Source: Halopiger djelfimassiliensis
Lineage (GTDB): Archaea > Halobacteriota > Halobacteria > Halobacteriales > Natrialbaceae
Length of the DNA stretch: 64,000 bases
Assembly (NCBI RefSeq): GCF_000455365.1
Contig: NZ_HG315687.1
Span: forward strand, 281,786-345,785
Reading direction: 5' to 3'
This document shows, piece after piece, positions 230 through 27,374 of this stretch (position 1 is its first letter; each line of letters opens with the position of its first letter). The translations under genes were made by a program, and so were the position numbers. The notes beneath the pieces were generated by a model, which worked only from the letters and a program-made list of their open reading frames with translations, did no database searches and had not been told where the DNA came from.

Positions 230-326
230 AAACGGAGGCTACGCTCCACCTGCCGCAGGGGGCATGCGCCGAAATGCCCCGGGTGCTGGACCACCCGAGA
301 CGTAGCTTCCAATCCCGCGAGGGATT
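230..326 (+). ncRNA. Candidate structured non-coding RNA
   Basis: A 10-bp stem (234-243 with 301-310, one G-U pair) closes a domain that can hold three hairpins: 249-252/256-259 (loop CCG), 260-264/275-279, and 281-285/292-296. Hairpins one and two compete for base 259 if the second is drawn at 6 bp. A further hairpin, AATCCC-GCGA-GGGATT, follows at 311-326. A TATA-like box sits about 25 bases upstream. None of the reading frames here looks like protein. I do not recognise the fold as a known riboswitch, SRP, RNase P or guide RNA. It lies between the CRISPR tail and a small zinc-protein gene and could be an independent RNA or a leader. Confidence 0.45.
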
Positions 327-463
327 CGAAGCATGATTGCGTACATTCTACCGGGTAATAAACATCCCGACCGACCGACGAACCGCATCGATCGACGACT
401 GAAAAGTAGCCGCGGGTGTGGCCTGCCGGGGACCGTCGGCGGCGACCGCTCGAGGGGGTGGCG

Positions 464-634
464 ATGAGCGACGACGACCCCGACGCCGGCGCTGACGACC
501 CCGATTCGTCCTCGGCGACGCTCTGTCCGCGGTGTGGGCGGCCGATCGCGATGGTGTCGGTGACCGGACCGATCGACGCCGTCGCGTCGCCCTGTGGCTG
601 TCGGGTTCCGCCGGGCGTGCTCGAGTCCGAGTAG
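464..634 (+). CDS. Small CPxCG-type zinc protein
   Basis: A 56-residue acidic protein with an N-terminal run of Asp/Asp-Pro and one CPRCG knuckle followed about 20 residues later by CGC, so up to four cysteines could hold one zinc ion. Such short zinc-binding proteins are common in haloarchaea and mostly of unknown role. The ATG at 464 is preceded by a purine-rich GAGGGGGTGG stretch. An upstream in-frame start would add unlikely N-terminal residues. It stands alone ahead of hisI with about 230 bases between. Function is not assigned. Confidence 0.7.
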   Translation: MSDDDPDAGADDPDSSSATLCPRCGRPIAMVSVTGPIDAVASPCGCRVPPGVLESE

Positions 635-26496: not shown

Positions 26497-26700
26497 TCAG
26501 TCGCTCTCGCAGACGACGTCCCGGAGTTCGTCGAGCAGTTCGGGATGATGCTCGGCGAGAACGTCGACATCCGTCTCTAACTCCTCGATCCGACTCCGGA
26601 CACGGTGGATCGCCTGATACCGCTTTTCGTCGGAAACGTCGGCTTTTCCGCTGATCTTCTCGCGATCCGCCGTCGTCATAATCGCGCGGTATTTGCTCAC
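26497..26700 (-). CDS. Conserved small haloarchaeal protein
   Basis: A 67-residue charged helical protein, reading KYRAIMTTADREKISGKAD from the N terminus, then a coiled-coil-like segment (QAIHRVRSRIEELETDVDVL) and a terminal CESD. The GTG at 26700 is taken as start; an ATG at 26679 would give 60 residues. The composition and end resemble a small protein widely seen in haloarchaea, unnamed to my knowledge. No function assigned. Confidence 0.7.
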   Translation of the reverse strand: MSKYRAIMTTADREKISGKADVSDEKRYQAIHRVRSRIEELETDVDVLAEHHPELLDELRDVVCESD

Positions 26701-26777: not shown

Positions 26778-26905
26778 TTTAGTGCTAAGTACTAAGTGAT
26801 CGGAGTCGGATAGCTTACCTGAGAACTCGAGGCACGCCGCGGAAAGGCGGCCGGTGTTGATGGCACCGACGCCTCGGGTTCTCGGAATGCAGCCCGGAGA
26901 ACCCA
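26778..26905 (+). ncRNA. Candidate structured RNA with switch-like alternative folds
   Basis: Bases 26821-26833 pair with 26871-26883 over 13 bp (one U-G), extendable to 15 bp with 26819-26820 and 26884-26885. The stem encloses two back-to-back hairpins (26836-26840/26847-26851 and 26852-26856/26864-26868) with almost no unpaired bases, a compact three-way junction. The 3' strand of the main stem, GGGTTCTC (26876-26883), can instead pair perfectly with GAGAACCC (26897-26904), so the two folds exclude each other. A tandem CTAAGTACTAAGT (26785-26797) and CTTTAG upstream may be promoter elements. A further small hairpin lies at 26924-26942. It could be a leader of the gene at 27054 or an independent RNA; no known family is recognised. 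Confidence 0.5.
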
Positions 26906-27053
26906 TGCTAATGGACGGACCTACCGGACTTCAGGATTCCGGCACGACTGCCGAATCGTCTGCCAAACAGGGCGACTGCAACGCGTGGGCGATCGACGAC
27001 GACCCAACGCGCATTGCCTGCTCGAGCCGAGCGGTCGTTTCGGGTGAGCGCGG

Positions 27054-27374
27054 ATGAGCAACGCGGACGTCGATCTCGAGACGGCCGAATCGCTCGCCCG
27101 CGCACGGCTCGCCGAGGCGCTCAGACATCCCGGCGAGTCGACGGGAAGCGACGTCGCCCGGCTTGCGGAACTCGCCGACGCCATCACGACTGCGCTGGAA
27201 CGCGGCGAGATACCCGAGAAACGCACCGTCGAGGAAGCCCGCTTTCGCGCGGACCGGATCGAAACGCGGCTGGACGAGGTGACGGCACTGTTCGGCTGGC
27301 ACCCGTGGGACGCGGGCGCGAACTGGGGGTCCCTGCCCGACGACCGACGGGCCGAGATCGAGGACCGCGACTAG
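27054..27374 (+). CDS. Small acidic helical protein, unknown function
   Basis: A 106-residue soluble protein with helical Glu/Arg/Ala stretches (ETAESLARARLAEALRHPGE; EEARFRADRIETRLDEVTAL) and a distinctive aromatic end (FGWHPWDAGANWGSLPDDRR). It has no membrane segment or metal motif. It lies about 150 bases downstream of the switch-like RNA, and the intervening short frame is not convincing, so the RNA could be its leader. Function is unknown. Confidence 0.65.
   Translation: MSNADVDLETAESLARARLAEALRHPGESTGSDVARLAELADAITTALERGEIPEKRTVEEARFRADRIETRLDEVTALFGWHPWDAGANWGSLPDDRRAEIEDRD

Follow-up and report, generated by a model that had tools for sequence, protein, structure and literature searches.

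The fluoride riboswitch of Thermococcus kodakarensis is an archaeal translational riboswitch that has been demonstrated experimentally (PMC8241225), and the eL15, S15 and L4 leaders of archaeal ribosomal-protein genes are structured, protein-binding cis-regulators found by covariation (PMC7247131). HRAMP, an array-less derivative of CRISPR, is also of relevance here: it has no CRISPR array (PMC8730458, PMC12669027), and no RNA is mentioned in the passages on HRAMP considered here. We have analyzed a leader RNA located in a 64,000-nucleotide stretch of Halopiger djelfimassiliensis DNA, hereafter called the window.

Like the translational riboswitches, this element is a conserved 5′ leader whose platform is able to form mutually exclusive folds, one of them adjoining the start codon, with a compact junction as a possible sensor. 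In contrast to them, it has no Rfam match or known ligand, its genes are mobile-element and defence cargo and not metabolic ones, its structure continues into an ORF, and its unpaired bases are moderately conserved, the conserved ones being only the GAA in P2, the P3 loop and the CGA junction. In small-molecule aptamers, the unpaired bases are usually more conserved than in this family. By analogy, the leader would work like a translational riboswitch or a protein-binding leader, although we do not grant it the class name of riboswitch without a ligand. It resembles the eL15, S15 and L4 leaders as a structured archaeal 5′ leader found by covariation (PMC7247131), but it has no Rfam match and no ribosomal-protein gene was seen downstream of it in the loci examined; on this ground, a ribosomal leader was rejected. 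The RNA leads most HRAMP operons with Cas5/Cas7-like genes, whereas the window copy is devoid of HRAMP genes and the RNA also occurs without HRAMP. The CRISPR-resembling CreTA antitoxin RNAs may be alike in being haloarchaeal small RNAs with a repeat-like end and with Cas-like genes near some loci; unlike them, the leader stands directly before a start codon, and no toxin or repeat-spacer layout was seen. From the sequence evidence, the element is best read as belonging to a known kind, the cis-regulatory leader RNAs.

The features of the locus are collected in Table 1. The sequence-only reading had proposed a stem enclosing two hairpins, together with an alternative hairpin that cannot coexist with it. 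Letters and coordinates of the stem, P1, proved exact (15 bp, CTGAGAACTCGAGGC with GCCTCGGGTTCTCGG), and the two enclosed hairpins were recovered in the minimum-energy fold given by RNAfold, a three-way junction P1/P2/P3. The alternative hairpin, P4, does pair perfectly over 8 bp (GGGTTCTC with GAGAACCC); it has eight bases in common with P1 and excludes the outer half of the latter. The 165-nt stretch folds at -71.5 kcal/mol, against -54.1 +/- 4.5 kcal/mol for its shuffles (z -3.9), and none of 200 shuffles folded as well in RNAfold. Concerning the genomic context, the stretch lies ahead of the gene at 27054 as had been described, but the 350-base gap seen there is not empty, as a leader ORF starts at 26905 and overlaps this gene. 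Its ATG, which had been missed, is directly 3′ of the end of P4, and the RNA-level constraint extends further, to about 26946, P5 included. Rfam gave no match for the whole window at the gathering cut-off and chance-level matches only at relaxed thresholds, in agreement with the earlier statement that no known family is recognised. No tRNA or tmRNA was found within the window; among the genes neighbouring the RNA, HIT and type IV prepilin peptidase were the only Pfam/NCBIfam families to score above the cut-off, and the divergent 67-aa ORF matched no family of these collections.

Table 1. Positions of the leader RNA copies and associated features in the window.
Feature	Positions	Strand	Remarks
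BRE/TATA-like promoter element, TAAG TACTAAG	26786-26796	+	position of the logo peaks of 75 relatives
P1 5′ strand	26819-26833	+	would be approximately the first transcript bases
P2 hairpin	26836-26851	+	GGAAAG loop with a family-conserved GAA
P3 hairpin	26852-26868	+	
P1 3′ strand	26871-26885	+	part 26876-26883 common to P4
P4 alternative hairpin	26876-26904	+	26876-26883 with 26897-26904; flush with the start codon
Leader ORF, 50 aa, MLMDGPTGLQDSGTTAESSAKQ...	26905-27057	+	ATGA overlap with the next gene
P5 hairpin within the ORF, CCGGA-CTTCAGGAT-TCCGG	26924-26942	+	covariation; codon changes
106-aa gene, family unassigned, cargo of the leader	27054-27374	+	RNA directly upstream in homologues
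Divergent 67-aa ORF, MSKYRAIMTTADREKISGKADVSDEKRYQAIHRVRSRIEE...	26497-26700	-	may encode a regulator acting on the shared promoter region (putative role)
Second RNA copy, type D	234-332	+	P1 234-243/301-310, P4 305-316/321-332, ATG 333
Type D leader ORF, MIAYILPGNKHPD... (333-467), overlapping the gene of a 56-aa zinc-finger protein (464-634)	333-634	+	

The covariance model R1, built from seven relatives with the window copy left out, recovers window positions 26819-26946 with a score of 39.6 bits and an E of 1.7e-7. At E <= 0.1, its members are found in 136 of 392 sampled genomes and in 51 of the 95 genera of the order; when 295 genomes of the phylum were searched with model R2 (E <= 1e-4), the matches fell in 17 genomes, all from this same order. 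At the DNA level, searching 61 related genomes yielded fragments in the organism's own genome and in two others. Side by side, the P1 and P4 arms of these fragments differ in sequence and keep their pairing, and every P4 ends at an ATG or just before it. The window copy itself displays the P1 junction, a P4 that overlaps P1 and is flush with the ATG, P5 and a haloarchaeal promoter. Its place in a large haloarchaeal family is confirmed, with homology beyond chance, and such a family at predicted mRNA starts is apparently undescribed. The covariance search in haloarchaeal genomes that the sequence-only reading had called for found the pairing retained by the relatives: both of the mutually exclusive folds, with compensatory changes, are kept across 51 haloarchaeal genera. 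Because the relatives keep both folds and Rfam has no match, the candidate structured RNA regulator outside known families is supported. In viral contigs, the P1/P4 pattern was found in 36 stretches, five of them with the RNA, and the P5 pattern in none; the RNA was not found in phage records. In two cases, L110 (Halocatena marina) and L123, a single plasmid harbours a cluster of several RNA copies in both orientations.

Over 79 distinct sequences, pairing is kept in 97% for P1 (55 double-sided changes), 92% for P5 (49) and 86% for P4 (37), these family statistics depending in part on a model in which P1 is included. The covariation scores are 0.346 for P1, 0.227 for P4 and 0.267 for P5, versus 0.143, 0.072 and 0.065, respectively, in shuffles; none of 500 shuffles equalled any of the three scores and sliding the partners abolished the signal. 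Since P4 was absent from the model of the alignment, its covariation is not built in. According to an independent parse, P4 is flush with the ATG in 64 of the 79 members, and P1 and P4 overlap at the start codon in 66 of 79, versus 9 of 523 other ORF starts from the same loci. With folding parameters that hold for 37 C and whose scope does not include a molar-salt cytoplasm, the energies of the P1 and P4 folds are near equal (median difference -0.1 kcal/mol; within 3 in 38 of 66 members). In the window copy, the P1 fold is favoured over P4 by 6.4 kcal/mol, and this copy may therefore rarely switch.

The logo of 75 members aligned on P1 shows an A-rich BRE, a TATA and an A-rich -10, with the BRE/TATA peaks at about -41 to -32 relative to the P1 anchor. 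As this haloarchaeal promoter logo lies upstream, transcription should begin at P1, and the window transcript would start at about 26816-26820, the 5′ edge of the stem. P1 and the ATG are separated by 78 nt (median), the median length of the leader ORF is 70 codons, and the stop codon of the leader overlaps the next ORF start (ATGA or TGATG) in 56 of 78 cases. We consider this ATG as the true start because both a Cas7-like protein (L112) and VNG_RS11530, as annotated by NCBI on Halobacterium salinarum plasmids such as pNRC200, start there. A comparison of eight members whose leader ORFs are homologous gave no synonymous and one non-synonymous change for the first 14 codons, versus 45 synonymous and 47 non-synonymous changes for the other 56 codons (92 codon changes, 66 third-position differences). 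This lack of synonymous change in the first 14 codons argues that the RNA signal crosses the start codon and reaches the end of P5; judged by these substitutions, the first 42 nt of the leader ORF are conserved at the RNA level and not at the peptide level. The peptide GLQxSGT was rejected as the conserved unit, since L035 swaps a base pair through two amino-acid-changing substitutions, and the 14 codons contradict it as well. On the other side of the promoter, a divergent gene starts less than 500 bp upstream at 68 of 77 loci; these genes are mostly 60-100 codons long and of several unrelated DNA-binding types. In most relatives, a divergent gene of 60-100 aa, from the 67-aa ORF family or encoding a winged-HTH, lies 70-130 bp 5′ of the RNA.

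The gene at 27054 belongs to a small family, and the RNA is directly upstream in eight of nine close homologues. HRAMP-matching operon genes (at least one of Cas7-like, Cas5-like and a third gene) are downstream in 28 of 77 loci. Of 46 HRAMP loci collected via Cas7 alone, 37 are preceded by the RNA in the same orientation, with E up to 0.1 for the weakest of these RNA matches; among the loci devoid of it, several are truncated contigs or have a broken cas7. The assignment to HRAMP is based on family matches and on PMC8730458 and PMC12669027. The HRAMP-type genes downstream of the RNA match Cmr3 (E 1e-7) and, weakly, Csm3 (E 0.02) and TIGR03986 (type III RAMP, E 0.025); at these related loci, they encode RAMP proteins of type III kinship. 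The AlphaFold model of the Cas7-like protein was too poor for use (pLDDT 38). One HRAMP-type Cas7 is present in the organism's own genome, with its own RNA copy upstream, and no Cas5- or Cas7-like HRAMP gene was found in the 16-kb neighbourhood of the window copy. A 220-residue Cas12f/TnpB-like protein often accompanies the HRAMP genes, as in the operons at L034, L035, L036, L045, L083 and L111; the HRAMP-linked nucleases named in the literature are HNH and PD-(D/E)xK. In many genomes, the Cas7-HRAMP search also brought up a second clade with lower scores (E about 1e-120). At L112 and L167, the Cas7-like protein is fused to the leader ORF and gains the P5-encoded ALAGIESSGT at its N-terminus.

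Plasmid operons with Orc1/Cdc6 are also headed by the RNA. In two viral contigs with tail-like genes, it precedes an integrase, directly in L222 and via a 24-codon leader in L198, where the integrase matches PF00589 (E 3e-12). At these two loci, the leader could possibly control integration.

A second RNA copy in the window, pointed out by model R2, belongs to a sub-type that we term type D. Model R3, whose training set included this copy, scores it at E 9.8e-33 in the own genome. Type D is characterized by a longer P4 (GCTTCCAATCCC/GGGATTCGAAGC) and a leader peptide MIAYILPG..., and R3 detects this sub-type in 108 of the 392 genomes, the own genome harbouring up to about 20 copies. In about half of the type D copies, a small zinc-finger gene comes next (paralogous in the own genome, L241-L249 and L265-L275). 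The P4 arms and P5 (CGGGA/UCCCG versus CGAGA/UCUCG) are variable, with pairing retained. Other own-genome type D copies (MIAYPLPRHKRLARHSVRS...) are near-identical repeats with no clear next gene, some of which adjoin masked stretches. A comparison of window positions 26924-27059 with L002 (G008:C4) showed the same chromosomal site and downstream genes, with a different RNA type and a different divergent regulator. The 86% identity with G008 begins only at 26924 and, as this is exactly at P5, it suggests a module exchange there between the window and G008 types.

The best explanation for these data, to which we assign a probability of about 0.7, would be a cis-acting 5′ leader that gates translation initiation through the exchange of P1 and P4. 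Transcription would start at the 5′ edge of P1 and the leader would fold as a three-way junction in which P1 closes P2 and P3. The outer half of the P1 3′ strand could re-pair with the bases just 5′ of the AUG to form P4, and P5 would lie about 17-20 nt downstream of the AUG. Closure of P1 would leave the sequence just 5′ of the AUG unpaired, and the leader ORF could then initiate; with P4 formed, a hairpin flush with the AUG would hinder initiation. In Haloferax, translation is lowered by a stable structure located at the start codon (PMC8241225), and P4 is therefore probably the off state. Through the ATGA/TGATG overlap, translation of the leader ORF would in turn control the gene that follows; transcription is probably set by the small DNA-binding protein encoded divergently. 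A trigger would act on P2/P3 or on the junction.

One would wonder whether the exchange matters over a fixed fold. P4, the AUG and P5 could form a constitutive element, serving to recruit the ribosome or to protect the 5′ end, without any switching, the overlap with P1 being a by-product. At L092, L100, L102, L115 and L116, P4 has changed yet is paired and the outer P1 pairs are gone; in these few members, of which L092, L100 and L115 illustrate the retention of P4, a fixed P4 therefore fits as well as the exchange. That P5 is conserved as RNA within a coding region, and that the AUG so frequently adjoins P4, would also agree with such an element. On the other hand, both folds persist in most members, with balanced energies and with compensatory changes at the shared bases, and a fixed P4 has no need of a complementary P1 5′ strand, so that we consider a constitutive element rather improbable. 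One could also assume that the inverted repeats are protein sites in the DNA, within a recombination site or a dispersed mobile repeat. Exchanged modules with a break at P5, and a type D present about 20 times in the own genome, would suit this idea. It is nonetheless highly improbable in view of the location on the coding strand, in the promoter-to-ATG interval, and a DNA dyad explains neither the strand common to P1 and P4 nor the asymmetric conserved loop of P5.

The frequent position of the RNA ahead of HRAMP operons raises another hypothesis, namely that an RNA cut from the leader is the missing guide or scaffold RNA of the HRAMP Cas5/Cas7-like complex. Besides this position, it would be favoured by the GAAGC before the AUG, which bears a visual resemblance to the end of haloarchaeal CRISPR repeats. 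The absence of a CRISPR array from HRAMP (PMC8730458, PMC12669027) would point in the same direction. However, the same RNA precedes plasmid operons, virus integrases and zinc-finger genes, many RNA-bearing genomes (e.g. G008, G096, G105) are devoid of such a Cas7, and no guide segment of variable sequence was seen, the bases 3′ of the handle being conserved or coding; a guide or scaffold RNA is thus quite unlikely. A related proposal, doubtful at present, is that the leader is the RNA partner missing from HRAMP and that the Cas5/Cas7-like complex binds it in its own mRNA and in those of plasmids and viruses with the same leader, which would result in autoregulation and in control of competing mobile elements.

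As a leader gating translation initiation, the RNA would represent a large haloarchaeal family, present in about one third of the sampled genomes by R1 alone and located exactly at the start codon. Its spread extends from plasmids and halovirus integrases to HRAMP operons and to zinc-finger genes present in multiple copies. For HRAMP, a CRISPR derivative in which no RNA is known, it would provide a candidate RNA.
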